This document shows positions 4,216 to 41,053 of a DNA stretch of 64,000 bases, piece by piece (position 1 is the first letter of the stretch; every line of letters starts with the position of its first letter). A model generated the notes under the pieces. That model made no database searches. It worked only from the letters and a program-made list of their open reading frames with translations, and was not told the origin of the DNA. The position numbers and the translations under genes are program-made. Source of the stretch: an uncultured Flavobacteriaceae bacterium (GTDB lineage Bacteria; Bacteroidota; Bacteroidia; Flavobacteriales; Flavobacteriaceae); contig CANLUS010000007.1 in assembly GCA_947494325.1 (NCBI GenBank), positions 124,001 through 188,000 on the forward strand, written 5' to 3'.

Positions 4216-5334
4216 ATGAATTTGAGTTATTGGGAATTGAAATCATGGTTTACAAATGTAGATTTTACAATTGTTGGAAGTGGAATCGTAGGATTAAATT
4301 GCGCGATTTACTTAAAAAAGAAACACCCCGAGGCGACTATTTTAATTCTAGAACAAGGAGTGCTGCCACAAGGAGCAAGTACAAAAAATGCTGGTTTTGC
4401 TTGTTTTGGAAGCTTGTCGGAAATTATGAGTGATTTAGAATCTCATGATGAACAAGAAGTACTGACACTCGTAGAAAAAAGATGGAACGGATTACAACTA
4501 CTACGTGAAAATTTAGGAGATCAACACATAGCGTATCAAAACAACGGAGGCTATGAACTGTTTTTGAAAGATGATCATTTATGGGGCCAATGTATTGGAA
4601 ATATAGATAGGATTAATGGATTGTTAGAGCCTTTATTTGAATCGAAAGTATTCTCTGAGAAAAAGAGTGAATTCAATTTTTTAAATCTTAGACAATCGAA
4701 TATCTTTAATCGATTCGAAGGACAGTTAGACACTGGTAAAATGATGTCAGAATTGTTAAAAAAGGTGCAATCGTTAGGGATAAAAATAGTCAATAGCTGC
4801 AAAGTTCAAAGCTATTCTGATCAACCAAACTCAGTTCATGTTCAAACGAATATTTGCGATTTTTTGACTGATAAATTACTCATCACCACGAATGGCTTTG
4901 CAAAGCAATTGTTGAATGAGAATGTGGAACCGGCTCGAGCGCAAGTGTTGATTACAAAACCAATTAAAGACCTTACGATTAAAGGAACATTTCATTTGGA
5001 TCAAGGCTATTATTATTTTAGAAATATTGATAATAGAATTTTATTAGGAGGAGGTAGAAATTTAGATTTCAAAACCGAAGAAACAACAGAATTTGGAGAG
5101 ACAAGCCTAGTGCAGAACAAATTGGAAGAATTGTTAGGAACGACTATTTTACCAACAACTAATTTCGAAATAGATTATCGATGGAGTGGTATCATGGGCG
5201 TAGGTCGAAAAAAGAAAGCCATTGTAAAGATGGTAGGTGAAAATGTCGCTTGTGGGGTACGTTTAGGTGGCATGGGAATTGCTATAGGTACATATATCGG
5301 TAAGGAATTAGCCGAAATAATGACTAAAAATTAA
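4216..5334 (+). CDS. FAD-dependent oxidoreductase of the DAO (D-amino acid oxidase-like) family
   Basis: Residues 17-30 carry the Rossmann dinucleotide motif GSGIVG with a following E (LILEQG) typical of FAD binding. The sequence GASTKNAGFACFGS and the C-terminal RWSGIMGVGR and GGMGIAIGTYIGKELAE fit the DAO superfamily (glycine or sarcosine oxidase-like enzymes). The 372-residue length is normal. There is no signal peptide, so it is cytoplasmic. The substrate cannot be told. Only 17 bases separate it from the YceI gene, so it may be the first gene of the transcript that continues into the polyketide operon. Confidence 0.85.
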   Translation: MNLSYWELKSWFTNVDFTIVGSGIVGLNCAIYLKKKHPEATILILEQGVLPQGASTKNAGFACFGSLSEIMSDLESHDEQEVLTLVEKRWNGLQLLRENLGDQHIAYQNNGGYELFLKDDHLWGQCIGNIDRINGLLEPLFESKVFSEKKSEFNFLNLRQSNIFNRFEGQLDTGKMMSELLKKVQSLGIKIVNSCKVQSYSDQPNSVHVQTNICDFLTDKLLITTNGFAKQLLNENVEPARAQVLITKPIKDLTIKGTFHLDQGYYYFRNIDNRILLGGGRNLDFKTEETTEFGETSLVQNKLEELLGTTILPTTNFEIDYRWSGIMGVGRKKKAIVKMVGENVACGVRLGGMGIAIGTYIGKELAEIMTKN

Positions 5335-5351
5335 TAAGACTGAAAATTACG

Positions 5352-5891
5352 ATGAAAACAACTATCTTTAAGAGTGCCATATGTATTGGTTTGTTTTTTT
5401 TGAGCACAACTATCATCGCTCAAAACGCGACTACAAACACACTTGTCGAATTTAAGATTAAGAATATTGGCGTTTATGTAAAAGGTACTTTTAGCGAAGC
5501 GTCAGTCACAAGTAGTTTTGATGCGGGTGATTTGACTAATAGTTTTATAAATGCTGTAATTAAAGTAAATTCGATTAATACAAACAATAAAAAGAGAGAT
5601 AAGCATTTACGTGAAAGTGATTATTTCGATGTTCATAATTATAAAGAAATGAAATTTGTCTCAACAAAAATCGAGAAAGTTTCAGGTGATAATTATAAGC
5701 TAACGGGTACCTTAACTATTAAGAAAACGAGTAAAACTGTAGTGATACCTTTAATTGTTCGGAATACGAATGAAAAGTTCTCACTCGCTGCGAACTTTGA
5801 ACTGAATAGAAGAGATTATGGGGTTGGAGGAAGTAGTTGGGTTATGTCAAATACTGTAAAAATTAATGTGAAATACACGAAAAAAAAATAG
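5352..5891 (+). CDS. YceI family periplasmic lipid/isoprenoid-binding protein
   Basis: The 179-residue protein has a signal peptide (about 1-24, ending IIAQ) followed by a YceI-type lipocalin-like domain. Characteristic tracts are VEFKIKNIGVYVKGTFSE, LRESDYFDVHNYKEMKF and LTGTLTIKKTSKTVVIPL. YceI proteins bind long-chain isoprenoids or other amphiphiles in the periplasm (family knowledge). It ends four bases before the TTG start of the FAD monooxygenase, so it is probably co-transcribed with the type III polyketide operon. A role in holding or moving the lipid product is possible but only inferred. Confidence 0.9.
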   Translation: MKTTIFKSAICIGLFFLSTTIIAQNATTNTLVEFKIKNIGVYVKGTFSEASVTSSFDAGDLTNSFINAVIKVNSINTNNKKRDKHLRESDYFDVHNYKEMKFVSTKIEKVSGDNYKLTGTLTIKKTSKTVVIPLIVRNTNEKFSLAANFELNRRDYGVGGSSWVMSNTVKINVKYTKKK

Positions 5892-5895
5892 TTCA

Positions 5896-7032
5896 TTGAA
5901 AGATAAAAATGATGTTGATGTTCTAATTATTGGTGGCGGACTCGCTGGATTAACGAATGCTATACATCTATCGAAAGCTAATGTAAATGTGCTTGTAGTT
6001 GAGAAAAATGACTACCCTAAACATAAAGTATGTGGCGAGTATATATCAAATGAAGTATTACCTTACTTAACATCTTTAGATGTCGATCCGTTTAAATTAG
6101 GTGCGCAAAGAATTAATCGGTTTTTACTCAGTACACCAAAGAGTAAAACTATCGAAGCTACTTTGCCATTAGGAGGCTTTGGTATTAGTCGCTATACCTT
6201 AGATGAGGCTTTGTCAAAAAAAGCTAGAGAAAATGGTGTGTCAATTATAAAAGATACAGTAGTGACGATTGATTATATAGATGATAATTTTCAAGTTTCT
6301 ACTAAAAATAAACAACAGTTTACAGCTCATATAGTTATTGGCGCATACGGAAAACGCGATGCGATTGACATGAAATTGAATAGAGATTTTATTAAAAATG
6401 AATCTCCATTTGTTGCTGTTAAAACTCACGTAAAAGGTGATTTTCCATCAGATTTAGTAGCGCTTCATAATTTTAATGGAGGTTATTGCGGGGTTTCCAA
6501 AGTTGAGAAGGAAGTGCTAAATCTATGTTATATTGCAAGTTATAAGTCGTTTAAAAAATTCAAGGATATTCAAGAGTTTCAAGAGAACGTTGTTTGCAAG
6601 AACACTTTTTTGAATGAGATTTTTAAAAACACAGAACCGCTCTTTAAAAAGTCGTTAACGATTAGTCAAATATCGTTTTCAAAAAAGAAACCTGTCGAAA
6701 ACCATATGCTAATGTGCGGAGACACAGCGGGTATGATCCATCCACTATGCGGTAATGGTATGAGTATGGCTATACGAAGCGCACAATTAAGTTCTCAGCT
6801 GATTCTAGCATATTTTAAAAAAGAAATTACTTCTCGGTTAGAGCTTGAAAATAGTTATGAAAAAGCTTGGAATAATGAATTTAAAAAAAGAATAAATGTA
6901 GGTCATGTAGCCGCTTCGATTTTTAATATGAATCATTTTTCTGAACTGGCATTAATTAGTCTTAAAAGTTTCCCTAGAATGCTTCCGAAAATTATCGCAC
7001 AAACACATGGTAAACCAATGTTAGCAATATGA
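5896..7032 (+). CDS. FAD-dependent monooxygenase/reductase of the polyketide operon
   Basis: This 378-residue flavoprotein has GGGLAGL at 13-19, an E/K-rich second strand (VVEKNDYPKHKVCGEYIS, as in the geranylgeranyl-reductase and PHBH-like group) and the second FAD motif CGDTAGMIHPLCGNG with D276. There is no signal peptide. The start is TTG: no ATG occurs before the Rossmann motif, and the TTG lies four bases after the YceI stop. It overlaps the next gene (methyltransferase) as ATGA. In type III PKS clusters such enzymes hydroxylate or oxidise the aromatic product; here that role is inferred from context. Confidence 0.85.
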   Translation: MKDKNDVDVLIIGGGLAGLTNAIHLSKANVNVLVVEKNDYPKHKVCGEYISNEVLPYLTSLDVDPFKLGAQRINRFLLSTPKSKTIEATLPLGGFGISRYTLDEALSKKARENGVSIIKDTVVTIDYIDDNFQVSTKNKQQFTAHIVIGAYGKRDAIDMKLNRDFIKNESPFVAVKTHVKGDFPSDLVALHNFNGGYCGVSKVEKEVLNLCYIASYKSFKKFKDIQEFQENVVCKNTFLNEIFKNTEPLFKKSLTISQISFSKKKPVENHMLMCGDTAGMIHPLCGNGMSMAIRSAQLSSQLILAYFKKEITSRLELENSYEKAWNNEFKKRINVGHVAASIFNMNHFSELALISLKSFPRMLPKIIAQTHGKPMLAI

Positions 7033-7739
7033 GCATTTTTGTGAACACAAAGCATAGAAGCAAGTCAGTTGAAATAATGGATGATCTATCTATGGGAGGA
7101 GAGATACTGCTTAAAACCTTAGATCAATTAGCTGTAATTAACAAATGGTTAGGAGGGAACGCAATTACGCTCAACGGAATCAAAATACTTCTGAAACAAA
7201 AGCCCGTCAATAAAGAGCTGACTATAATTGACTTAGGTTGTGGAGGTGGAGATATGTTAAGGAAGGTTGCAGACTATGGAAGAAAAAAAGGATATAGCTT
7301 TAAATTGATTGGTGTAGATGCCAATCTGCATACAATCGAATATGCTAAAAAATTATCTCAAGAATATCCCGAAATTAATTATCTTCATCAAGATGTTTTT
7401 TCTAATGAGTTTAAGCAATTGTCATATGATATTGTATTAGCAACGTTGTTTATTCATCATTTTAGCGGTACCAAATTAGTGGGACTTATGCGAATGCTTC
7501 ATGACAATGCCAAACTTGGCGTTGTTGTAAATGATTTGCATCGTCATGCCTTAGCGTATTATTTGTTTAAGTTACTCAGCATCACTATATCAAATGAAAT
7601 GGTGAAACAAGATGGATTGACTTCAATTTTACGAGGTTTCAAAAAGGATGAGTTGGTAATGATTTCAGAACAACTAAATGTTAAAAGTTATATAGATTGG
7701 AAATGGGCTTTTCGATTTCAATGGATAATAAAGGAGTAA
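7029..7739 (+). CDS. Class I SAM-dependent methyltransferase 1 of the polyketide operon
   Basis: The 236-residue protein has SAM motif I IIDLGCGGGD at 66-75, an acidic loop (LIGVDANLHTIEYA) and a post-motif tract DIVLATLFIHHF. It is a paralogue of the methyltransferase at 11602: both share the pre-motif region (INKWLGGNAITL versus INKYLGNTSITL) and a final KWAFR tract. It overlaps the flavoenzyme stop (ATGA) and is followed directly by the type III PKS start (TAAATG). It probably methylates the aromatic or pyrone product on oxygen or carbon; which one cannot be read from sequence. Confidence 0.87.
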   Translation: MSIFVNTKHRSKSVEIMDDLSMGGEILLKTLDQLAVINKWLGGNAITLNGIKILLKQKPVNKELTIIDLGCGGGDMLRKVADYGRKKGYSFKLIGVDANLHTIEYAKKLSQEYPEINYLHQDVFSNEFKQLSYDIVLATLFIHHFSGTKLVGLMRMLHDNAKLGVVVNDLHRHALAYYLFKLLSITISNEMVKQDGLTSILRGFKKDELVMISEQLNVKSYIDWKWAFRFQWIIKE

Positions 7740-8792
7740 ATGAGTGTTAAGATAGTATCTGTTGCGAAGCAACTACCAAAATATACCAGAACTACTGAAG
7801 AAATATTACCATATTTAAAACTTTGGTTAACGGGGCAAGAAGAACGTTTTCAGCGAAAAGTGATGAAAATTTTTGAAAATGCTGCTGTAGATAGGCGCTA
7901 TTCTATCATGGATGCGCATGAAGTTTTTTTAAATACTTCTTTTGAAGAAAAGAATGACATTTACGTACGGGAGTCTATTAAACTGGCAGAAAACGCCTTA
8001 AAAAAATCACTGAATAAGGCGAATTTAAAGCCTACAGATATTGATTATATTATAACCGTAAGTTGCACAGGAATTATGATTCCTTCATTAGATGCGTATT
8101 TAATTAATAGCCTCGAAATGAAGGAAGATATTGTAAGATTACCAGTAACGGAAATGGGGTGTGCTGCGGGTGTTTCAGGAATGATTTATGCGAAGAATTT
8201 TTTAAAAGCAAATCCCAACAAGCGAGCGGCAGTAATCGCCGTTGAATCACCTACGGCAACATTTCAGTTACAAGATTTCTCCATGGTAAACATTGTAAGT
8301 GCGGCTATTTTTGGAGATGGTGCCGCTAGTGTTATTTTATCGTCATACGAAGGTGAAGAAGGACCTGAAATTATAGATGAAGCTATGTATCATTTTTATA
8401 ATGCCGAACATATGATGGGCTTTAAGTTGGTAAATACAGGGTTGCAAATGATTTTAGATCAGTCAGTACCTCAAACAATTGCCGATCATTTCCCTAAAAT
8501 TGTCCATCCATTTCTCGAAAAAAATGACATGACTATTGAAGAAGTAGATCATTTGATTTTTCATCCAGGTGGAAAGAAAATAGTACAAACCGTAGAAGAA
8601 TTATTTGGCACTTTAGGGAAAAATATTGATGATACGAAAGAAGTACTTAAATTGTACGGTAATATGTCTAGTGCCACAGTTCTCTATGTTTTAGAGCGTT
8701 TTTTAGACAAAGAATTGTCAAAAGGAGAAACAGGTTTAATGTTGAGTTTTGGCCCAGGGTTCTCAGCACAACGAATTTTATTAAGATGGTAA
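7740..8792 (+). CDS. Type III polyketide synthase (chalcone/alkylresorcinol synthase-like)
   Basis: A homodimeric ketosynthase of the chalcone synthase superfamily that extends a CoA- or ACP-bound starter with malonyl units and cyclises it. The full catalytic triad is visible: C141 in TEMGCAAGVSG, H275 in FHPGGKK and N308 in YGNMSSAT. The C-terminal FGPG loop (LSFGPGFSAQ) is present. At 350 residues it has normal bacterial length. It begins immediately after the methyltransferase stop and its end overlaps the reductase start by 7 bases. The ACP and ketosynthase genes nearby suggest an acyl-ACP starter, but this is inference. An alkylresorcinol, alkylpyrone or phloroglucinol-type product is possible. 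Confidence 0.95.
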   Translation: MSVKIVSVAKQLPKYTRTTEEILPYLKLWLTGQEERFQRKVMKIFENAAVDRRYSIMDAHEVFLNTSFEEKNDIYVRESIKLAENALKKSLNKANLKPTDIDYIITVSCTGIMIPSLDAYLINSLEMKEDIVRLPVTEMGCAAGVSGMIYAKNFLKANPNKRAAVIAVESPTATFQLQDFSMVNIVSAAIFGDGAASVILSSYEGEEGPEIIDEAMYHFYNAEHMMGFKLVNTGLQMILDQSVPQTIADHFPKIVHPFLEKNDMTIEEVDHLIFHPGGKKIVQTVEELFGTLGKNIDDTKEVLKLYGNMSSATVLYVLERFLDKELSKGETGLMLSFGPGFSAQRILLRW

Positions 8793-9583
8793 GAGAATTT
8801 CAACAGGATAATTATTGGGCGCTTATTTTAGGTGGTTCGAGTGGTTTAGGATTGGCTACGGCGAAAAAATTAGCACAACATGGCATGAATATTTGTGTTG
8901 TGCATCGTAGTAGAAAGTCAGAAATTCCAGGCATACATGAAAATTTCGATGAAATAAAGAATCATGGAGTCGAATTTATATCATTTAATATCAATGCATT
9001 TAAGGCTGAAGAACGACTCAAAGTTATTGATAGCCTTAAATTGGAGCTGGGCGATAAAGGTAGAATAAGAACACTAGTTCATAGTGTTGCCAAAGGAAAT
9101 TTAAAACCTATGATTGCAACAGATAAGCCAGCACTAAAGAATGATGATTTTCATTTAACCATCGACGCGATGGCAATTAGTTTATACGATTGGACAAAAG
9201 TAGTATTTGACGAACGATTATTTGCAGATGATGCCCGTCTTATAAGTTTTACGAGTGAAGGGAATACAAAAGCTTGGCCTAATTATGCAGCTGTTTCGGC
9301 GGCGAAAGTAACGCTAGAAGCTATTACGAGAAATATCGCATTAGAATTTGCGCCTTATGGTATCAGAGCCAATTGTGTTCAGGCTGGAGTGACCGATACG
9401 TCGTCATTACGGGCAATCCCGGGGAGTCAAGAGATTATAAACCATTCGTTAAAAAGAAATCCATTTAAACGATTAACCTTACCAGAGAATGTAGCTGATG
9501 TTGTATATTTATTGAGCAAGGATGAAGCTGCATGGATTAATGGGTGTATTATTCCCGTAGACGGTGGTGAACATATTAACTAA
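8786..9583 (+). CDS. SDR-type enoyl-ACP reductase-like protein
   Basis: The 265-residue Rossmann protein has the nucleotide motif GGSSGLG at 16-22. Its active site reads Y167 followed by K174 (YAAVSAAK), a Tyr-x6-Lys spacing as in FabI/FabL enoyl-ACP reductases, rather than the Tyr-x3-Lys of classical ketoreductases. The end WINGCIIPVDGGEHI is common to both groups. It overlaps the PKS stop by 7 bases and is 3 bases from the dehydratase. It probably reduces an ACP-bound enoyl intermediate. A ketoreductase role cannot be fully excluded. Confidence 0.85.
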   Translation: MVREFQQDNYWALILGGSSGLGLATAKKLAQHGMNICVVHRSRKSEIPGIHENFDEIKNHGVEFISFNINAFKAEERLKVIDSLKLELGDKGRIRTLVHSVAKGNLKPMIATDKPALKNDDFHLTIDAMAISLYDWTKVVFDERLFADDARLISFTSEGNTKAWPNYAAVSAAKVTLEAITRNIALEFAPYGIRANCVQAGVTDTSSLRAIPGSQEIINHSLKRNPFKRLTLPENVADVVYLLSKDEAAWINGCIIPVDGGEHIN

Positions 9584-9586
9584 ACT

Positions 9587-10027
9587 ATGAATTCAAAACA
9601 AATTGTTTCAGCATTACCCTATCAAACACCTTTTTTGTTTGTAGACGAATTAACAGTTATTTCTGAAGATGGAATTACAGGAAATTATACCTTTAAAAAA
9701 GATGCGTATTTCTATGAAGGTCATTTTAAAGGAAATCCGATAACACCTGGGGTTATATTAACCGAAACAATGGCCCAGATAGGTGTCGTATGCTTAGGAA
9801 TTTATTTGACAAGAAATACTAAAAAATCGAATAGAGCCCCGCAAGTTGCTTTAACATCGAGTGCCGTAGATTTTTATGTGCCAGTATATCCTGGAGAACA
9901 AGTGATCGTTATTTCCGAAAAAGAATATTTCAGATTTAATAAGTTAAAATGTAAAGTGAAGTTATTGAATGCTCAAGGTCAATTGGTATGTAGAGGTTTT
10001 ATTTCAGGAATGATCAATGAAAAATAA
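9587..10027 (+). CDS. FabZ-like 3-hydroxyacyl-ACP dehydratase
   Basis: A single hotdog-fold protein of 146 residues. The segment YFYEGHFKGNPITPGVILTE carries the FabZ-type catalytic pair H46 and E60 with the usual 14-residue spacing, followed by the MAQIG tract of the central helix. It would dehydrate ACP-bound 3-hydroxyacyl chains in the cytoplasm. Its 3-prime end overlaps the ketosynthase start by 11 bases, so the two are translationally coupled. Being inside the operon, it is more likely dedicated to the secondary pathway than a housekeeping FabZ. Confidence 0.9.
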   Translation: MNSKQIVSALPYQTPFLFVDELTVISEDGITGNYTFKKDAYFYEGHFKGNPITPGVILTETMAQIGVVCLGIYLTRNTKKSNRAPQVALTSSAVDFYVPVYPGEQVIVISEKEYFRFNKLKCKVKLLNAQGQLVCRGFISGMINEK

Positions 10028-11288
10028 AAGAGTTGTTATTACAGGACTAGGAGTCGTTGCACCAAATGGTGTGGGTATCGATGATTTTACAGATGCTATT
10101 AAAAAAGGAAGATCCGGTATTCAATTTTATGAAGAGTTAAAAGATCTTAATTTCTCCTGCTGTATTGGGGGGATTCCTAAGATTTCGGAAGATCTCAAAA
10201 CACAATATTTCACAGATCTACAATTGCGAAACTTTAATAGTTCAGGTATCCTATATGGTTGTATAGCTGGCATGGATGCATGGAAAGATGCAGATCTATC
10301 TACAAATAAGAATGAATTAGATTTTGATAGTGGTACAGTCTTCGGTACGGGTACTTCTGGGGTTGAAAAGTTTAGAGAAGCCATTTATAAATTAGATGAT
10401 AAAAAAGTAAAACGCTTAGGGAGTACAGTCGTAGTTCAAACAATGGCGAGTGGTATAAGTGCATACTTAGGTGGTATCTTAGGATTAGGTAATCAAGTCA
10501 CCACCAACTCGTCAGCTTGTTCTACCGGAACAGAGGCCATCTTATTGGGTTTTGAACGCATACAGGCAGGTAAAGCAAAACGAATGTTAGTAGGTAGTTG
10601 TAGCGATCACGGTGCTTATTTATGGGGTGGTTTTGACGCTATGCGAGTTATGACTTATAAACATAACGATACTCCCGAAAAAGGATCTCGTCCCATGAGT
10701 GAATCGGCTTCTGGATTCGTTCCAGGTAGTGGAGCAGGAGCATTGGTCTTAGAATCTTTAGAGAGTGCCATCGAAAGAGGAGCAAATATTTATGCGGAGG
10801 TTCTAGGCGGAGCTGTAAATTCTGGTGGGCAACGAAATGGTGGAACTATGACGGCGCCCAATTCGAAGGCTGTTCAAAGATGTATAAAAGAGGCTGTCAA
10901 AGAAGCTGGAATTTCTAGCGATGATATTGATGTAATTAATGGTCACCTAACAGCAACTATTAAAGATCCAGTTGAAATTGAAAATTGGGCAATTGCTCTT
11001 GGAAGAAAAGGGAAAAAGTTTCCATATATCAATTCATTGAAGTCGATGGTTGGTCATTGTTTGGCAGCCGCAGGATCCATAGAAACCGTAGCTGCGGTCT
11101 TGCAATTGAAAGAAAGTTTTATTTTTCCGTCTATAAATTGTGAAGACCTACACCCTGATATAACTACGTGTATTGATGCAGACAGAATACCAATGAAGAC
11201 CTTGTATCAAAATGTGAAAATAGTTGCCAAAGCTAGCTTTGGCTTTGGAGATGTGAATGCCTGCGCAATTTTTAAGAAATATGACTAA
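10017..11288 (+). CDS. FabF-like beta-ketoacyl-ACP synthase
   Basis: Condensing enzyme of 423 residues with the complete Cys-His-His triad: C168 in NSSACSTGTEA, H310 in INGHLTATIKDP and H347 in MVGHCLAAAGS. In FabF the first histidine lies in HGTST; here the sequence around it is altered (GHLTAT), which marks a divergent clade. FabF length is usual. The gene overlaps the dehydratase and is followed 50 bases later by the ACP. It would elongate ACP-bound acyl chains with malonyl-ACP. No second ketosynthase or chain-length-factor-like gene is in the operon. Confidence 0.93.
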   Translation: MKNKRVVITGLGVVAPNGVGIDDFTDAIKKGRSGIQFYEELKDLNFSCCIGGIPKISEDLKTQYFTDLQLRNFNSSGILYGCIAGMDAWKDADLSTNKNELDFDSGTVFGTGTSGVEKFREAIYKLDDKKVKRLGSTVVVQTMASGISAYLGGILGLGNQVTTNSSACSTGTEAILLGFERIQAGKAKRMLVGSCSDHGAYLWGGFDAMRVMTYKHNDTPEKGSRPMSESASGFVPGSGAGALVLESLESAIERGANIYAEVLGGAVNSGGQRNGGTMTAPNSKAVQRCIKEAVKEAGISSDDIDVINGHLTATIKDPVEIENWAIALGRKGKKFPYINSLKSMVGHCLAAAGSIETVAAVLQLKESFIFPSINCEDLHPDITTCIDADRIPMKTLYQNVKIVAKASFGFGDVNACAIFKKYD

Positions 11289-11338
11289 TAATTGATATTT
11301 CAACAAAAACAAGAATTCAGAAATCAAAAAGTAAGTAG

Positions 11339-11587
11339 ATGAGTAACGAAGAACTAATAGTGACTTTAAAGAAAATAGTAAAACCATATATTCAAGATGA
11401 AATCGCTTTTGAAAATTTATCTGAGGATACCGATTTTGTAAATGATTTAAAAATTAATTCGGCCAATTTAGTTGATGTTATTTTAGATGTTGAAGATGAA
11501 TTTGATATCGAAATTGACAATGATTCAATGGAACAAATGTTATCCGTAAAAGCTGCTATAGAAATTATTACTTCAAAGCTTAATTAG
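11339..11587 (+). CDS. Acyl carrier protein of the polyketide operon
   Basis: An acidic 82-residue protein with the four-helix ACP pattern. The serine expected to carry phosphopantetheine is S41 in DLKINSANLVD; the usual DSL signature is replaced by NSA, which marks it as a specialised ACP and not the fatty-acid AcpP. It is followed in the same operon by a phosphopantetheinyl transferase that could activate it. A 50-base leader separates it from the ketosynthase, perhaps allowing separate expression of this highly used protein. Confidence 0.92.
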   Translation: MSNEELIVTLKKIVKPYIQDEIAFENLSEDTDFVNDLKINSANLVDVILDVEDEFDIEIDNDSMEQMLSVKAAIEIITSKLN

Positions 11588-11601
11588 AAATAGTGTTTTA
11601 A

Positions 11602-12297
11602 ATGTTTGATACCAGGAGTTACTTGAAAGAAGAAATGGACAACTACCCAACAAATGGGGTAATGTTGAATGATTCATTGAGTAAACTATCTTTAATCAAC
11701 AAATACCTTGGAAATACATCAATTACCTTAAAGGCGGTCGTTGAAATATTAGAAAGAAAACCTAAAGAGATATTTCATATCGTTGATTTGGGTTGTGGTG
11801 CTGGAGATAATCTAAGGGCAATTGGCAATTGGTGTATAAAAAAAGGGAGAAAAATAAAACTAACAGGTATCGATGGTAATAAAAATATTTTGAGCTATGC
11901 AATGTCTCAAAATGATAAGGTGAAAATTAATTATAAACACGTAAATATTTTAGACACTCAATTTGAGTTAGAGCGTTGTGACATCGTAATAAGTAGTCAT
12001 TTTATCTATCGTTTTACCGATGCTGAATTGATTCATTTTATAAGTAGATCAAGTGACAAAGTGCGTAGCGCGATAATTTTCAGTGAGTTACAGCGTCATG
12101 TCGTTCCGTATGTTGCATTTTCAATATTCGGAAGGTTATTTTCTTTAAATACGATGGTTTTACAAGACGGTTTGAAAGCAATTAAAAATTCGTTTCAAAA
12201 AAGAGAGTTGAGAGATATTTTGAAACAAGTTGATGTTTCATCGTTCAACATAAAATGGAAGTGGGCATTTCGATATTTAATTATAATTAAGAGTTAG
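11602..12297 (+). CDS. Class I SAM-dependent methyltransferase 2 of the polyketide operon
   Basis: The 231-residue protein has SAM motif I HIVDLGCGAGD at 59-69 and an acidic loop LTGIDGNKNIL. It is a paralogue of the methyltransferase at 7029, sharing the pre-motif region and the C-terminal KWKWAFRY tract. It is followed directly by the phosphopantetheinyl transferase (TAGATG). Two related methyltransferases suggest two methylation steps or two sites on the product. In this copy the post-motif tract is SSHFIYRF rather than ATLFIHHF, so specificity probably differs. Confidence 0.86.
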   Translation: MFDTRSYLKEEMDNYPTNGVMLNDSLSKLSLINKYLGNTSITLKAVVEILERKPKEIFHIVDLGCGAGDNLRAIGNWCIKKGRKIKLTGIDGNKNILSYAMSQNDKVKINYKHVNILDTQFELERCDIVISSHFIYRFTDAELIHFISRSSDKVRSAIIFSELQRHVVPYVAFSIFGRLFSLNTMVLQDGLKAIKNSFQKRELRDILKQVDVSSFNIKWKWAFRYLIIIKS

Positions 12298-12885
12298 ATG
12301 ATTGGTAATGATATTGTAGATTTAGAATTGGCTAAAACTCAAAGTAATTGGCAGCGTAAAGGTTTTTTGACAAAAATTTTTACGAGTCAAGAGCGCCAAA
12401 TGATTGAACAAGCTAAGGATCCTTTTCGACTCGTTTGGTTGTTTTGGAGTATGAAAGAGAGCGCGTACAAATGTTATGTTCAGAAAAAGAAGGTTCGTTT
12501 TTTTGCACCTAAAAAATTTCAATGTGAACTAATTACAAATAACCAAGGTTTGGTTTTAATCGATAATGAATTCTATAAAACCCATTCGAAATTAACGAAT
12601 AAATTTATCTTAACAGAAGCAAGTGCAGTCCAAAATAAAAGTATTGAAAATGGATATTTTGAATTGAACAATTCAACACCAAAGAGGAGCAGTTCTATCG
12701 TTCGAAATAAATTGAAAGATGCGATTTCGATAAACATGAAGCTTCCCGTTGAGAAATTTAGCATTAAAAAGAATGCTCTAGGAATTCCATATGTATATCG
12801 GGGTACTAAACAACTGCAAGTTTCAATTTCTATGACGCATCATGGTAATTTTGGAGCTTATTCAATATTAAATCAAGAAGCATGA
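12298..12885 (+). CDS. 4'-phosphopantetheinyl transferase
   Basis: The 195-residue protein has the two superfamily signatures: GNDIVDL at 3-9 with the metal-binding aspartate, and WSMKESAYK at 50-58 with the catalytic K53/E54 pair. These enzymes move phosphopantetheine from CoA to the ACP serine. Between and after the motifs it is longer than AcpS, closer to a single-chain transferase with a C-terminal domain (SISMTHHGNFGAYS). Its place next to the ACP gene suggests that the ACP is its target. It overlaps the next gene by ATGA. Confidence 0.92.
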   Translation: MIGNDIVDLELAKTQSNWQRKGFLTKIFTSQERQMIEQAKDPFRLVWLFWSMKESAYKCYVQKKKVRFFAPKKFQCELITNNQGLVLIDNEFYKTHSKLTNKFILTEASAVQNKSIENGYFELNNSTPKRSSSIVRNKLKDAISINMKLPVEKFSIKKNALGIPYVYRGTKQLQVSISMTHHGNFGAYSILNQEA

Positions 12886-13313
12886 ATGAATTTATAGCAT
12901 ACGCAAAATCGAAATTAAAAGTTGATCAAAAATTAATACTAACGTACGTAGTTATCTATTTTAGTTGGGGCATGCTCATGGATAATTTTGGAGCGAAAGT
13001 TGAAATTGCCAAATTTACGTATTGGTGGCAGGTGATAACGGTCTATCTCATTTATATGATCCCAATATCCTTATTATTACGAGGGTTACCATTTCATGCA
13101 CAATATGCATATGGTTTAGTAGCCATGGCTTTCCTGGAATTTGGTGGATATGCTTTGCAAACATCTTATGCCTACCCTAATAATATGCTTGATGAGCTCT
13201 TTAATATTAGAAATTTCAGTTTAGGAATGGCTTTATTTTTTGCATTGTATTTCCCTCTTGGGAATGCATTAGTGGGTAAGGTTTACCGTACTATTTTTAA
13301 AGGTAAATCTTAA
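12882..13313 (+). CDS. Small integral membrane protein at the end of the polyketide operon
   Basis: I do not recognise a family. The 143-residue protein has about four hydrophobic helices (about 20-40, 48-66, 74-92, 112-135) and no signal peptide. Aromatic residues are common in the segments (FTYWWQVITVYLIY). It overlaps the phosphopantetheinyl transferase stop by ATGA, so it is co-translated with the biosynthetic genes. A role in product export, membrane insertion or anchoring of the enzymes is possible; the sequence alone does not decide. Confidence 0.7.
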   Translation: MNEFIAYAKSKLKVDQKLILTYVVIYFSWGMLMDNFGAKVEIAKFTYWWQVITVYLIYMIPISLLLRGLPFHAQYAYGLVAMAFLEFGGYALQTSYAYPNNMLDELFNIRNFSLGMALFFALYFPLGNALVGKVYRTIFKGKS

Positions 13314-13318
13314 AATTG

Positions 13319-13765
13319 ATGCAAGATATTAAACAACAATTATTAAATTCTTGTTTCGAATATGTCGCACGACGATCTAAAACGGTAAGCGATACTATTT
13401 CGTCAAATCAAAAGGCGTTATTATCTGAAACTAAAAGTAGTGCTGGAGATAAGCATGAAACCGGTCGAGCGATGCTGCAATTAGAAATGGAAAAGGCAAG
13501 TCAGCAATTGGCAGCAATCAATCAAATGAAAAAGGTACTGGCGAAGTTAACTATTGAAACTTCGGTTCTTGCTAAGTTAGGAAGTTTAATTATGACCGAC
13601 CATGCGAATTATTTTTTAGCCGTTAGTGCCGGAGAAATAAAAATTAATAAGACAACCTACTACGCGATCTCTCCTGGTTCACCAATAGGCAGTTTGTTAT
13701 TGGGAAAACAGGTGGGGGATACTGTTAATTTTACCAAGGAAATGTTAATTAAAGCAATTTTTTAG
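13319..13765 (+). CDS. GreA/GreB C-terminal-domain-like protein
   Basis: The 148-residue protein has a helical, possibly coiled-coil N-terminal half (about 1-80) and a C-terminal half resembling the FKBP-like domain of transcription factor GreA: AISPGSPIGSLLLGKQVGDTVNF matches the family pattern SPIGxALLGKxxGD. It could bind RNA polymerase, but the acidic tip residues of true GreA are not obvious, so anti-pausing activity is uncertain. The ATG at 13319 is chosen over a TTG one codon earlier. It lies five bases after the membrane protein and is probably read from the same mRNA. Confidence 0.75.
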   Translation: MQDIKQQLLNSCFEYVARRSKTVSDTISSNQKALLSETKSSAGDKHETGRAMLQLEMEKASQQLAAINQMKKVLAKLTIETSVLAKLGSLIMTDHANYFLAVSAGEIKINKTTYYAISPGSPIGSLLLGKQVGDTVNFTKEMLIKAIF

Positions 13766-13806: not shown

Positions 13807-16299
13807 ATGAAAAAAATATTATTCTTATTGTTGGCAATATGCATGTTGACGCCAACTTCCATTCAAGCGCAGAAAAAGAAGAAAAAGAAAAAAGGTAAAA
13901 CAGAACTTCCTGTGAAACCCAAACCAAAAGCGAAATCGAAAAATGGTATAAAAAAGTATAGCGAAGTGATAACCAAAAATGCTATTACTGATGAGGGTCT
14001 TTTTGATTTGCATAAAGTTAACAAGACATATTTTTATGAAATTCCTTTTTCTAAGTTAAACAAAGACATGTTATGGGTGAGTCGAGTAGCGCAGATCCCA
14101 ACAGGTTTGGGAGGTGGTTTTTTCAATGCTGGTACCAAAACCAATGAACAAGTTGTACACTGGACGCGATTTCAAGATAAGGTTTTGCTAAAAGTTAAGT
14201 CTTTTAGAAATGTTGCTGATAGTTCTAAAGCAATTAGTGCTTCGGTTCGTGTAAACAACTATGAACCTATTTTGTTTGCTTTTGATATTAAGGCTTTTAA
14301 TGCAGATTCAACAAAAGTAGTTATTGATGTTACTAAGTTTTTTAGTAAAGATATACTAGCGATTAGTGGTTTGCCTAGCTTTTTAAGAAAGCGTTACAAA
14401 GTAAGACGATTGGATGCCTCTCGGAGTTTTATTAATAGTATGAAGAGTTTTCCAGAAAATATAGAGGTGAAACAAGACTTTACTTATGAGGCTTCAGAAC
14501 CACCGTCATCAGCTTCAACGGGCTCTATTAGCTTGCAAATGAATCAGTCAATGATTTTATTACCTGAAGAGCCTATGCAACCTCGGTTATACGATCCTCG
14601 TGTAGGTTTTTTTACGGTTAGTCAATATGATTTTGGTAGTGAAGCTTTAAAGGCCGATCAAAAAACATATATCAGACGTTGGAGACTAGAGCCAAAAGAT
14701 CCTGCTGCTTATGCGCGTGGTGAATTGGTTGAACCAGTGAAGCCTATTGTGTATTACTTAGACCCAGGTACCCCTGAAAACCTTAGAAAATATATCAAAC
14801 AAGGCATTGAAGATTGGCAAAAACCATTTGAGACTGCAGGATTCAAAAATGCTATTATTGCGAAAGATGCACCAACTCCAGAAGAAGACCCAGAGTTTAG
14901 TCCAGAAGATATTAGGTATTCGGTCGTGCGTTATGTGGCGAGTACAACACGAAACGCGGTTGGACCAAGTGTCTCTGATCCAAGAAGTGGTGAAATTATT
15001 GAAAGCGATATCGTATGGTATCATAACCATTTAAGAAGTTATAGAAACCGATATTTATTAGAGACTGGAGCCGCGAATCCAAGTGCTAGAACATTGAATA
15101 CAAAGCCGGAAGAAATAGGTGAAATGATGCGTATGGTCATTGCCCACGAAGTGGGGCATGCCCTAGGCTTTCCACATAATATGGCAGCAAGTTTTGCTTA
15201 TCCTGTAGAATCATTGAGAGATGGTGCTTTTACACAAGAATTTGGCTTAGCAGCAAGTCTCATGGATTATACGAGATACAATTATGTTGCGCAGCCTGGA
15301 GATGAAAATATCCGATTTGTTCGTCAAATGGGGCCTTATGATCATTATGCTACGAATTGGGGTTATAGATATATCCCAGGTGCAGCTTCCGCGGAGGCGG
15401 AAAAAATCACACTTGACAAATGGATTCTAGATACCAAGGGAGATCCAAAATATAAATTTGGAAGACAATCCAGTCGTTTCGACCCACAATCACAAACCGA
15501 ATGTGTAGGAGATGATCCGATCAAGGCAAGTGACTATGGATTAAAAAATCTGAAATATGTAGCAAAGAATTTGCCAAGTTGGACGTCTGACGTGACCAAT
15601 AATTATCAAGATTTAGAAGAACTCTATGGAGAATTATTAGGCGTGTATAGTAGATATATAGGGCACGTCCTAACCAATATTGGAGGTGTCTATGAAAATA
15701 TTAAAATGCCAAATCAAGAGGGTATTGTGTATACCCATGTGGACAGAGCAACACAAAAAGCATCTTTACGATGGTTGCAAACAAACATTTTTGATACACC
15801 TACATGGTTGATCGATAAAAAAATCCTTCAAAATATAGATCATGCAGGATATTTTGAACGTTTGCGCAGAGTGCAAGGGAGATATGTCCATTCCTTGTTA
15901 AGTTTTGATCGTATCGGTAGATTGATAGATAGTGAAACGGTGAACTCTTCCTATTATAGTGCACTTGAGATGTTGAGAGATTTAAGAAGTGGACTTTGGA
16001 AAGAGGCCAATGCAGGGAGAAATGTTGACTTGTATCGAAGAAATTTGCAGCGTACCTATTTAGATAGAATGGGATATTTGTTAACGAAAAATGGACGACC
16101 GCCACGTAGAAGTAGACCAGGTTTCGAAGGAACGTTGACCTATAGTGTAAATACTTCAGATGTTAGAGCCTTGGTACGAGGAGAATTGAAAACCTTGCGT
16201 TCTAGATTAAGAAGCGCCAGAAGTGGTGTGAATACGGTAACTCGCTATCATTACGAAGATGCGATTGCAAGAATAGATCAATTACTAGATCCTAAATAG
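13807..16299 (+). CDS. Secreted zinc-dependent metalloprotease (DUF5117/DUF5118 type)
   Basis: The 830-residue protein starts with a signal peptide (1-21, ending SIQAQ) and a very lysine-rich stretch (about 22-50). The zinc motif is HEVGHALGFPH with H447, H451 and H457, followed by a methionine-turn-like SLMDY. The large N-terminal domains match the usual layout of this Bacteroidetes protease family, and length is typical. No T9SS tail is seen, so it is probably periplasmic or attached to the outer membrane. Its substrate is unknown. The last eight bases overlap the convergent ABC gene. Confidence 0.9.
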   Translation: MKKILFLLLAICMLTPTSIQAQKKKKKKKGKTELPVKPKPKAKSKNGIKKYSEVITKNAITDEGLFDLHKVNKTYFYEIPFSKLNKDMLWVSRVAQIPTGLGGGFFNAGTKTNEQVVHWTRFQDKVLLKVKSFRNVADSSKAISASVRVNNYEPILFAFDIKAFNADSTKVVIDVTKFFSKDILAISGLPSFLRKRYKVRRLDASRSFINSMKSFPENIEVKQDFTYEASEPPSSASTGSISLQMNQSMILLPEEPMQPRLYDPRVGFFTVSQYDFGSEALKADQKTYIRRWRLEPKDPAAYARGELVEPVKPIVYYLDPGTPENLRKYIKQGIEDWQKPFETAGFKNAIIAKDAPTPEEDPEFSPEDIRYSVVRYVASTTRNAVGPSVSDPRSGEIIESDIVWYHNHLRSYRNRYLLETGAANPSARTLNTKPEEIGEMMRMVIAHEVGHALGFPHNMAASFAYPVESLRDGAFTQEFGLAASLMDYTRYNYVAQPGDENIRFVRQMGPYDHYATNWGYRYIPGAASAEAEKITLDKWILDTKGDPKYKFGRQSSRFDPQSQTECVGDDPIKASDYGLKNLKYVAKNLPSWTSDVTNNYQDLEELYGELLGVYSRYIGHVLTNIGGVYENIKMPNQEGIVYTHVDRATQKASLRWLQTNIFDTPTWLIDKKILQNIDHAGYFERLRRVQGRYVHSLLSFDRIGRLIDSETVNSSYYSALEMLRDLRSGLWKEANAGRNVDLYRRNLQRTYLDRMGYLLTKNGRPPRRSRPGFEGTLTYSVNTSDVRALVRGELKTLRSRLRSARSGVNTVTRYHYEDAIARIDQLLDPK

Positions 16300-17296
16300 A
16301 ACTATGAAATTCAAAAGAGTCTTCGAGAATGGAGGCTCTTTTTTTTATGATATTTTCATCAATTTTGAAACAAATCTGTTGCCCTGATTTTAGACTTTTT
16401 GTATGTTTAAAATAAACATTCCTATTATTAAAACTGACATTAACCAGAAAATGATCTCCATTAAAAAAAGACTGCTTTACCACAGCTTTGAAGTTGGATG
16501 ATTGCGCAAGCTCAATCTCATGTGGATAAATGATAACAACTCCAAATTTTTTGGAGTCTGTTACTTCTGATATTTTGAACTCGTTAAACTCATCAAAAAA
16601 AGAAGCTATCAAACTATTTTTAGGATGCTCATATAAATGTTTAGGACTATCAAATGCAATGGCCTCACCCTGATATAAAAACAGCATAGAATCAGCAAAA
16701 GAAACAATATCATGCTTGTCATGTGTAGCGACAACACACGTAATGTTCTGTTGTTTTAAATAACTATACAGACTTCTTCTTAAAGACTGTTTCTTTAAAT
16801 TGTCAATATGACTAAATGGTTCATCAAGCAATAAAATTTCTGGTTCTTTTGCGAGGGCCCTTGCCAAGGCAACACGTTGCTTTTGACCACCACTTAAGTA
16901 TTTGACTTTCGTTTTGGCTACTTCTTGCAATTCAACAATAGCTACCAATTCATCAATACGACGTTGTTTTTCGTTGAGATCTTCATTTGATAAAAATTTT
17001 CCTATGTTATTTTCGACGCTAGTAAAGGGCATCAAGTCAAATTCTTGAGAAACATATTTCATGTAATCCGGACCAGGAATTAGATTATATTCCGGACCTA
17101 AAATTTGATGCTTGTTCCAGAAAATAAACCCTCTGTTTAAATCGTATTCACCATACAGTAATTTGAGTAAAGTACTCTTACCAGAACCGCTTTCTCCTGC
17201 AATGGCAAGACATTCGCCTTTTGCAATAGAGAAATCAATATTCTTTAAAGTAAGCGCCCTATTATAACTAAAGTAAATGTTATTGACTTTAAGCAT
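16292..17296 (-). CDS. ABC transporter ATP-binding protein (spermidine/iron/sulfate importer-like)
   Basis: Complete nucleotide-binding domain: Walker A GESGSGKST at 34-42, signature LSGGQKQR, Walker B ILLLDEPFSHID, and the switch histidine in VVATHD. The C-terminal part (about 240-334) looks like a TOBE-type regulatory domain, as in PotA or FbpC. No permease or binding protein lies beside it, so its partner is encoded elsewhere or it has another role. The end of the gene overlaps the protease gene on the other strand and contains that gene's terminator. Confidence 0.88.
   Translation of the reverse strand: MLKVNNIYFSYNRALTLKNIDFSIAKGECLAIAGESGSGKSTLLKLLYGEYDLNRGFIFWNKHQILGPEYNLIPGPDYMKYVSQEFDLMPFTSVENNIGKFLSNEDLNEKQRRIDELVAIVELQEVAKTKVKYLSGGQKQRVALARALAKEPEILLLDEPFSHIDNLKKQSLRRSLYSYLKQQNITCVVATHDKHDIVSFADSMLFLYQGEAIAFDSPKHLYEHPKNSLIASFFDEFNEFKISEVTDSKKFGVVIIYPHEIELAQSSNFKAVVKQSFFNGDHFLVNVSFNNRNVYFKHTKSLKSGQQICFKIDENIIKKRASILEDSFEFHSSI
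16313..16346 (+). terminator. Terminator of the metalloprotease gene, inside the ABC coding region
   Basis: A 10-pair stem with G-U pairs (AAGAGTCTTC with GGAGGCTCTT) and a six-base loop is followed by a run of T. It begins 14 bases after the protease stop and lies within the last codons of the convergent ABC ATPase. Confidence 0.75.
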
Positions 17297-24843: not shown

Positions 24844-24921
24844 AATACATGGTTTTAAGGATTATGCCTACTCTATAAGTTTTTCGGCTTCCACTTGTTA
24901 TTTGAATTTCAAAGAGCGTGC

Positions 24922-40985: not shown

Positions 40986-41053
40986 TGTTTTATTTTTTAA
41001 TTGTTTAACAAACTAACATTCACGATTCTCGTCAGAGGTTAATTTTGAGTTTG

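Follow-up and report, generated by a model that had tools for sequence, protein, structure and literature searches.

Why should a type III polyketide synthase (PKS) be encoded together with an acyl carrier protein (ACP), a ketosynthase (KS), a dehydratase (DH), a reductase and a phosphopantetheinyl transferase (PPTase)? This question is raised by a run of ten genes at positions 5896 to 13313, on the plus strand, of a 64,000-nucleotide stretch of contig CANLUS010000007.1 from an uncultured Flavobacteriaceae bacterium, hereafter referred to as the window. According to the original prediction, which was made from the letters alone, an acyl chain is made on the ACP and handed directly to the PKS, giving a phenolic lipid or alkylpyrone that is then methylated twice and oxidized. 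All ten open reading frames (ORFs) are present at their predicted positions and strand and are as tightly packed as had been claimed, with successive gaps of −4, 0, −7, +3, −11, +50, +14, 0 and −4 bases (a range of −11 to +50); the earlier family assignments also hold by Pfam and NCBIfam (Table 1).

The answer we favor, with a probability of roughly 60%, is that the type III PKS receives its starter as acyl-ACP from a type II fatty-acid module of its own, leading to a methylated, oxidized alkylresorcinol or alkylpyrone. The cassette behind this proposal is real, conserved and coherent; its gene content, its synteny, the co-occurrence of its parts and their intact active sites are established by the comparisons reported here.

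Conservation and linkage of the cassette

Searching 249 Flavobacteriaceae genomes with the PKS gave matches in 156 at an E value of 1e-10. A core-type PKS, at least 58% identical over nearly the whole length (68 and 54% in G150, where it comes in two pieces), is found in 85 genomes, while the rest of the matches listed reach at most 31%. Besides the window's own genome there are 84 of the core type; cassette DNA was taken from 80 of them, G150 was added later and three were left out. Gene content was scored by a profile search of six-frame ORFs in 84 loci, comprising 80 Flavobacteriaceae loci, the window itself and three loci outside this family but within the class. A second set, the best 80 named loci, overlaps the first, and counts from the two are not additive.

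A seven-gene core in the order FAD-MT-PKS-(ER)-DH-KS-ACP, with FAD standing for an FAD-dependent oxidoreductase, MT for a methyltransferase and ER for an enoyl reductase, is the rule. The FAD, MT and PKS genes were present in all 84 loci, DH, KS and ACP in 80, and ER in 75, one of which (L098) holds a remnant. Because this core order recurs across many genera, the ten-gene arrangement is not a product of chance; the second methyltransferase (MT2), the PPTase and the small membrane protein are lineage extras beside the core. As for the four loci that lack both KS and ACP, L036 ends at a contig edge and its genome carries DH-KS-ACP-PPTase on another contig (L258), L078 and L096 are split cassettes, and L042 belongs to genome G138. 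Similarly, KS and ACP were found in 75 of the best 80 named loci; contig ends truncate four of the remaining five, and the fifth is L214. The ORFs of L195 are fragmented. In G150 (L257), the PKS and FAD genes are each read in two frames, with KS, DH, ER and ACP each in a single ORF; this is a probable broken PKS copy.

Co-occurrence across the family, the check that had been suggested for this locus, came out in favor of a link. Core-type KSs were defined by an E value of at most 1e-120 and at least 51% identity, which excludes housekeeping FabF and could miss more diverged core KSs. By this definition, 84 of the 249 genomes carry both KS and PKS, one (G138) carries the PKS alone, and none carries the KS alone, in counts that ignore kinship; in other words, the PKS occurs in 85 genomes, the KS in 84, and the KS never without the PKS. 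An illustration is given by genomes G144 and G190, in which FAD-MT-PKS-ER and DH-KS-ACP lie at separate places, on another contig in G144 and ∼356 kb apart in G190, and in which both halves have been kept. As the surroundings of both DH-KS-ACP halves are alike, the two splits may be one event. The keeping of both halves is the strongest single observation for a functional linkage and, together with the presence of the PKS in 84 of 84 KS genomes, supports the prediction that the PKS and the ACP-dependent module form one unit.

The protein distances of PKS, KS, FAD, MT and DH also correlate, with r values of 0.76 to 0.88 over 142 loci, as compared to a maximum of 0.18 in 200 permutations. This set was drawn from 164 loci of the overlapping sets, 146 of which had all five genes above the length limits, and from these four duplicate-PKS loci were dropped. 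The correlation shows common inheritance, not function, because shared ancestry alone would also give it.

In a sample of 395 genomes of the phylum, 33 carry a core-type PKS (here at least 66% identity), three of them outside Flavobacteriaceae, and the next matches listed are at most 36% identical; judged by this identity gap, the core-type PKSs are a discrete clade. In a tree built from 68 PKS sequences, one starred clade groups a Saprospiraceae strain and Saprospiraceae metagenome-assembled genomes (MAGs) with Brumimicrobium, Bizionia and a Flavobacteriales MAG, a mixture of families which suggests horizontal transfer. Among 20 further loci of the phylum, three have the cassette (two without a detected ER), one (L160) was unreadable by script, and 16, with distant PKSs, have no cassette-type DH, KS or ACP. 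In two of these 16, L164 and L166, a distant type III PKS lies beside MT and FAD homologs without a KS-ACP module, and the PKS-MT-FAD trio therefore exists on its own in other Bacteroidota. The gene set minus MT2 is thus not unique to the window: it is common among Flavobacteriaceae and also occurs in some Bacteroidia outside this family. On plasmids, 228 records match the PKS, all below 60% identity and the best listed at 34 to 35%, and the cassette was absent at the two matches inspected; with the KS, eight matches were listed at ∼36% identity, the annotated ones being ordinary FabB/FabF.

The synthase, the type II module and the tailoring enzymes

The PKS matches both chalcone synthase domains above cut-off (PF00195, 2e-19; PF02797, 1.6e-20), and the catalytic triad Cys141-His275-Asn308, called complete in the original prediction, does not vary across the 81 sequences aligned, the window included. 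Possessing both domains and the triad, the protein qualifies as a type III PKS of the chalcone/stilbene synthase superfamily. Residue counts, here and below, are from ORFs called in 81 Flavobacteriaceae loci, leaving out loci in which the gene was absent or uncalled. The best NCBIfam model is DpgA, at 177.5 bits well below the equivalog cut-off of 425. DpgA, a 3,5-dihydroxyphenylacetyl-CoA synthase, uses only malonyl-coenzyme A (malonyl-CoA). A DarB-type ketosynthase, as in the DarA/DarB cluster for flexirubins and dialkylresorcinols, was not recognized: the DarB model scores 26 bits on the PKS versus a cut-off of 550 and is not listed for the KS. A structure model based on 23 aligned sequences (pLDDT confidence of 87) has Pks11 of Mycobacterium tuberculosis (template modeling [TM] score of 0.92) and CylI (0.90) as its nearest solved folds. 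Pks11 is also the best sequence match in the PDB (5.7e-51), although only 29% identical, and makes methyl-branched alkylpyrones from long-chain acyl-CoA (PDB entry title and available parts of PMC6274091).

The reductase of the original prediction is indeed present, and its type can now be specified. This short-chain dehydrogenase/reductase (SDR) carries the motif NYAAVSAAK (Y-x6-K), with Y167 and K174 in 73 of 73 aligned sequences. Since Y-x6-K is the mark of enoyl reductases and YxxxK that of ketoreductases, the motif rules out a ketoreductase; YxxxK is seen in the genome's own FabG (TIGR01830, 332.8 bits, over cut-off). The best PDB match is the enoyl-ACP reductase 3oic (7e-24), which we take to be FabL. 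Because the best NCBIfam model, also FabL, scores 138.2 bits and so falls short of the equivalog cut-off of 328, the protein is best described as of the enoyl-reductase type, not as FabL itself. Full length in 74 of the 84 loci and reduced to 61 amino acids in L098, the ER is the most dispensable part of the core.

The other members of the module are similarly well preserved. The DH has H46 and E60 in 75 of 75 aligned sequences, and the KS has C168, H310, K342 and H347 in 77 of 77. The phosphopantetheine site of the ACP, Ser41 in the motif INSAN, is a serine in 70 of 70. Going by these residues, the catalytic machinery of PKS, KS, DH, ER and ACP is intact. The PPTase, whose gene is found in 28 of the 84 loci, presumably activates the cassette ACP.

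Outside the cassette, C1 holds a FabF-like KS adjoining an ACP and also the second PPTase-family match of the genome. Beyond these, a third KS-like protein (C4) and three weak matches to the KS family were found, along with FabG and, in a frame of 484 amino acids, one FabZ-type domain. With the cassette KS ∼31% identical to the C1 KS, the nearest other KS of the genome, and the C1 and cassette ACPs sharing ∼35% identity across 66 residues, the module is, by sequence divergence, an old set separate from the primary fatty acid genes. The chain-building enzymes do not make up the "full set" originally described: a ketoreductase, a malonyl transacylase and FabH are absent from the core. From what is known of the pathway, the module must therefore borrow these three from primary fatty acid synthesis.

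As for the tailoring enzymes, the FAD enzyme scores 112 bits with TIGR02032 (cut-off, 158.8) and has C46-G47-E48-Y49 in 81 of 81 aligned sequences. Its nearest, albeit weak, PDB sequences are FADH2-dependent halogenases (5buk, 7.4e-10). A halogenase is nonetheless unsupported, as the WxWxIP motif of FADH2-dependent halogenases is found in 0 of 81 sequences. MT1 gives 129 bits with PRK06202, whose cut-off of 243 is not reached. MT2, 38.5% identical to MT1, occurs in one of the 84 loci, the window itself; in the best 80 named loci it occupies the corresponding position in the close relatives L175 and L176, and an extra methyltransferase is found elsewhere in L232, L241, L248 and possibly L247. 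The predicted double methylation would thus suit the window lineage, with its two enzymes, and at most a few others, because only one methyltransferase is core. The small membrane protein, encoded in 24 of the 84 loci, is 55 to 74% identical in 17 aligned homologs out of 22 listed; its model is helical (pLDDT of 79), and it has no PDB match at an E value of 0.001 and no Pfam or NCBIfam family.

Proposed acyl-ACP priming and its alternatives

In the pathway that we propose, the PPTase would arm the cassette ACP, on which the FabF-like KS and FabZ-like DH, joined in ER-bearing loci by the ER-type SDR, would build or lengthen an acyl chain with the assistance of housekeeping FabG and malonyl transacylase. 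The PKS would then take this chain as its starter directly from the ACP, add malonyl units and cyclize the product to an alkylresorcinol or alkylpyrone. Methylation by MT1 (plus MT2 in the window lineage) and oxidation of the ring by the FAD enzyme would yield a methoxylated phenolic or quinone lipid. Its passage through the envelope may depend on the YceI protein and, in certain relatives, on an MMPL-family exporter. The gene content fits a methylated, oxidized phenolic lipid like the hidABC products discussed below; the transfer from ACP, with acyl-ACP and not acyl-CoA as starter, the ring type, whether resorcinol or pyrone, the order of steps, the product and its role are what we infer.

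Several known systems share parts of this arrangement. Streptomyces srsABC encodes a type III PKS, a methyltransferase and a flavoprotein, and the resemblance of the cassette trio to the srs genes noted originally stands for these three gene types; srsABC is not known to have a dedicated type II module, which is extra here. The same three adjacent activities, found together in 84 of 84 loci, are also known from cyanobacterial hidABC, which accounts for the methylated and hydroxylated alkylresorcinol hierridin B, and from a planctomycete operon. The likeness is one of activities, and the gene order FAD-MT-PKS differs; no dedicated ER, DH, KS, ACP or PPTase is described alongside these trios in the available passages (PMC10896814, PMC8086630). 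Operons combining methyltransferase, oxidoreductase and type III PKS have been linked to alkylresorcinols, with planctomycete PKSs giving pentadecyl- and heptadecylresorcinols in Corynebacterium glutamicum; one such operon also has a gene for a lipid/isoprenoid-binding protein (PMC10896814, in excerpt), to be compared with the YceI gene just upstream of our cassette.

A handover like the one proposed is known from the Azotobacter ars system, in which a dedicated fatty acid synthase, ArsA, passes chains from its ACP to ArsB and ArsC for phenolic lipids (PMC6274091 and PMC3098273, in part). As in ars, the fatty acid synthase genes are constantly linked to the PKS (KS, DH and ACP in 80 of 84 loci; KS in 84 of 85 PKS genomes). 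Whereas ArsA is a multidomain type I enzyme, the cassette specifies free-standing type II proteins of 423 (KS), 146 (DH), 265 (ER) and 82 (ACP) amino acids. The accessible part of a review reports acyl-ACP use by ArsB, ArsC and Gcs, and a cyclization switch at ArsB Trp281/ArsC Gly284 (PMC6274091). An ACP-begun chain is also passed to a type III PKS in cylindrocyclophane synthesis, where the chain starts on the ACP CylB, is lengthened by the type I PKSs CylD/CylH and reaches CylI, near in fold to the cassette PKS, which makes a resorcinol (PMC8086630, in excerpt). CylD/CylH, CylB, the halogenase and CylK of that system have no counterpart in the cassette core. The koreenceine genes of Pseudomonas, by the excerpt available, are a type II system unrelated to the cassette (PMC6498172).

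Several points speak against priming by a dedicated module. The co-occurrence counts ignore shared ancestry, and G138 carries the PKS without the KS. In 9 of the 84 loci no ER lies between PKS and DH, and L098 has a shortened one; 17 of the best 80 named loci also lack it (12 Polaribacter, 4 Winogradskyella and 1 Brumimicrobium). There is also the lack of a ketoreductase, malonyl transacylase and FabH in the core. The fatty starter stays a proposal because the best NCBIfam model for the PKS is DpgA, and so does ring hydroxylation by the FAD enzyme, whose top-scoring model is of the geranylgeranyl-reductase type and whose closest, weak PDB matches are halogenases. Finally, the trio of planctomycetes functions in the absence of any such module (PMC10896814, in the passages available).

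This last observation also bears on a two-part product, in which primary metabolism supplies the PKS with ordinary acyl-CoA or acyl-ACP and a separate acyl group from the module is joined later. We consider this unlikely: while the characterized planctomycete trios do convert ordinary fatty starters to alkylresorcinols with no module present (PMC10896814, same passages), and while strict co-occurrence would be expected just the same, no acyltransferase or esterase is found among the ten proteins, the variable neighbors being only partly classified. Quite improbable, in our estimate, is the reverse order of events, in which a DpgA-like PKS makes a small aromatic acyl-CoA from malonyl-CoA only and thereby primes the KS-DH-ER-ACP module for an aryl-alkyl chain or, where the ER is lost, an aryl polyene by the logic of flexirubins. 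Such dialkylresorcinol-type aryl polyenes are typical of the phylum (PMC10734526, in excerpt), DpgA is the best model for the PKS, and loss of the ER with retention of KS, DH and ACP (9 of 84; 17 of the best 80 named loci) would leave double bonds. Nevertheless, the score stays under the DpgA cut-off, the ten proteins include no adenylation or CoA-ligase family, the nearest folds, Pks11 and CylI, are both alkyl-chain enzymes, and a housekeeping enoyl reductase could replace the lost ER.

We attach almost no credence to the idea that the PKS and the module serve neighboring but unrelated pathways. Their side-by-side position would allow for it, and some neighbors of the cassette (a dehydrogenase E1, a lipocalin-like protein and OmpA) do look like mere flanks, but co-occurrence in 84 of 84 genomes and the retention of both halves after splitting lead us to reject it, and the protein distances are correlated as well. 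Priming of the type III PKS by the dedicated module thus remains our preferred reading.

Boundaries, neighbors and distribution

The co-directional run extends past the ten genes, with DAO-family and YceI genes upstream and a GreA-like ORF downstream (Table 1). A terminator-like hairpin at 16313-16342 is the longest of the plus-strand scan, which is weak evidence given 10 sites found versus 7.4 expected. A Bacteroidetes-type promoter pattern has two matches in the window, none of them near the operon, versus five expected by chance. A Met-zincin gene (DUF4953/DUF5117/DUF5118) adjoins the operon at 13807-16299, and a gene of ∼800 amino acids lies beside the separate DH-KS-ACP half in both G144 and G190 (L255, L256). 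Rfam matches in the window are a DUF805b RNA (24865-24897) and an L19-Flavobacteria leader (41014-41041), both on the minus strand.

Table 1. Genes of the cassette and of the adjoining co-directional run (SAM, S-adenosylmethionine; GG, geranylgeranyl)
Feature	Coordinates	Strand	Remark
DAO-family FAD oxidoreductase	4216..5334	+	PF01266; 17-base gap to YceI-like gene
YceI-like (lipid/isoprenoid-binding family) protein	5352..5891	+	PF04264, 6.5e-33; 4 bases upstream of FAD gene
Core gene 1, FAD-dependent oxidoreductase (GG-reductase/aromatic hydroxylase/halogenase superfamily)	5896..7032	+	TTG start
Core gene 2, SAM-dependent methyltransferase MT1 (PRK06202-type)	7029..7739	+	NCBIfam
Core gene 3, type III PKS	7740..8792	+	PF00195/PF02797
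Core gene 4, enoyl-ACP-reductase-type SDR (Y-x6-K), 265 amino acids	8786..9583	+	Best NCBIfam model FabL
Core gene 5, FabZ-like 3-hydroxyacyl-ACP dehydratase, 146 amino acids	9587..10027	+	PF07977
Core gene 6, FabF-like KS, 423 amino acids	10017..11288	+	PF00109/PF02801
Core gene 7, dedicated ACP, 82 amino acids	11339..11587	+	PF00550
Lineage-specific second methyltransferase MT2 (PRK06202-type)	11602..12297	+	NCBIfam
4'-Phosphopantetheinyl transferase (PPTase)	12298..12885	+	PF01648, 2.4e-14
Small membrane protein, conserved	12882..13313	+	No Pfam/NCBIfam family
GreA-like ORF	13316..13765	+	PF01272, 26.6 bits, just below cut-off of 26.9; 2 bases downstream

Of 81 loci, 27 have a YceI homolog close to the cassette, 8 of these homologs sharing its strand, and the YceI-like gene is a possible co-transcribed accessory. 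The DAO-family oxidoreductase (16 of 81 loci, in one subset of relatives) and the GreA-like ORF (also 16 of 81, mostly upstream there) are probably mere neighbors. An MMPL-family gene directly follows the PPTase gene in 6 of 81 loci, the family having been tested on one of them. The YceI and MMPL neighbors fit a lipid product and prove nothing.

A branched-chain dehydrogenase E1 gene lies upstream of the cassette in 55 of 81 loci. Its candidacy as supplier of the starter is weakened, since 13 of the 15 PKS-less genomes examined carry E1 too, and in 3 of these 13 it is followed within 1.5 kb by the lipocalin-like and OmpA genes without a cassette (L268, L271 and L273). This occurrence in PKS-less genomes makes the E1-lipocalin-OmpA block look like a flank; with TerC next in L268, that locus appears as if it were an empty cassette site.

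Type III PKS clusters make up 10.74% and 9% of the predicted biosynthetic clusters in two surveys of Flavobacteriaceae, the available passages of which name no product for them (PMC10734526, PMC7440613), and one genome paper, as excerpted, reports its type III PKS cluster to be without MIBiG similarity (PMC9859067). With the core-type PKS in 85 of 249 genomes, part of this cluster class must be the cassette described here. In line with the original statement that no described product was known for this exact gene set, neither a description nor a product was found in the parts of the open-licence literature available, which is weak evidence of absence.

That an ACP-fed type III PKS can make phenolic lipids is a known idea; what is new is the pairing of a free-standing type II module with a type III PKS. 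The cassette occurs in 77 of 235 sampled Flavobacteriaceae genera. We tentatively suggest, as a possibility we rate somewhat short of even, that it represents a synthase class so far confined to Bacteroidota, in which type II enzymes and a private ACP feed a type III PKS directly to make undescribed methylated, oxidized phenolic or quinone lipids of the envelope in about a third of the sampled Flavobacteriaceae genera. The choice of an ACP-bound starter by type III PKSs has so far been studied on few enzymes (Ars, Gcs and CylI). If our preferred reading is correct, the cassette would offer a compact, free-standing and easily reconstituted system for this question, and a common lipid of abundant marine bacteria would have been identified.

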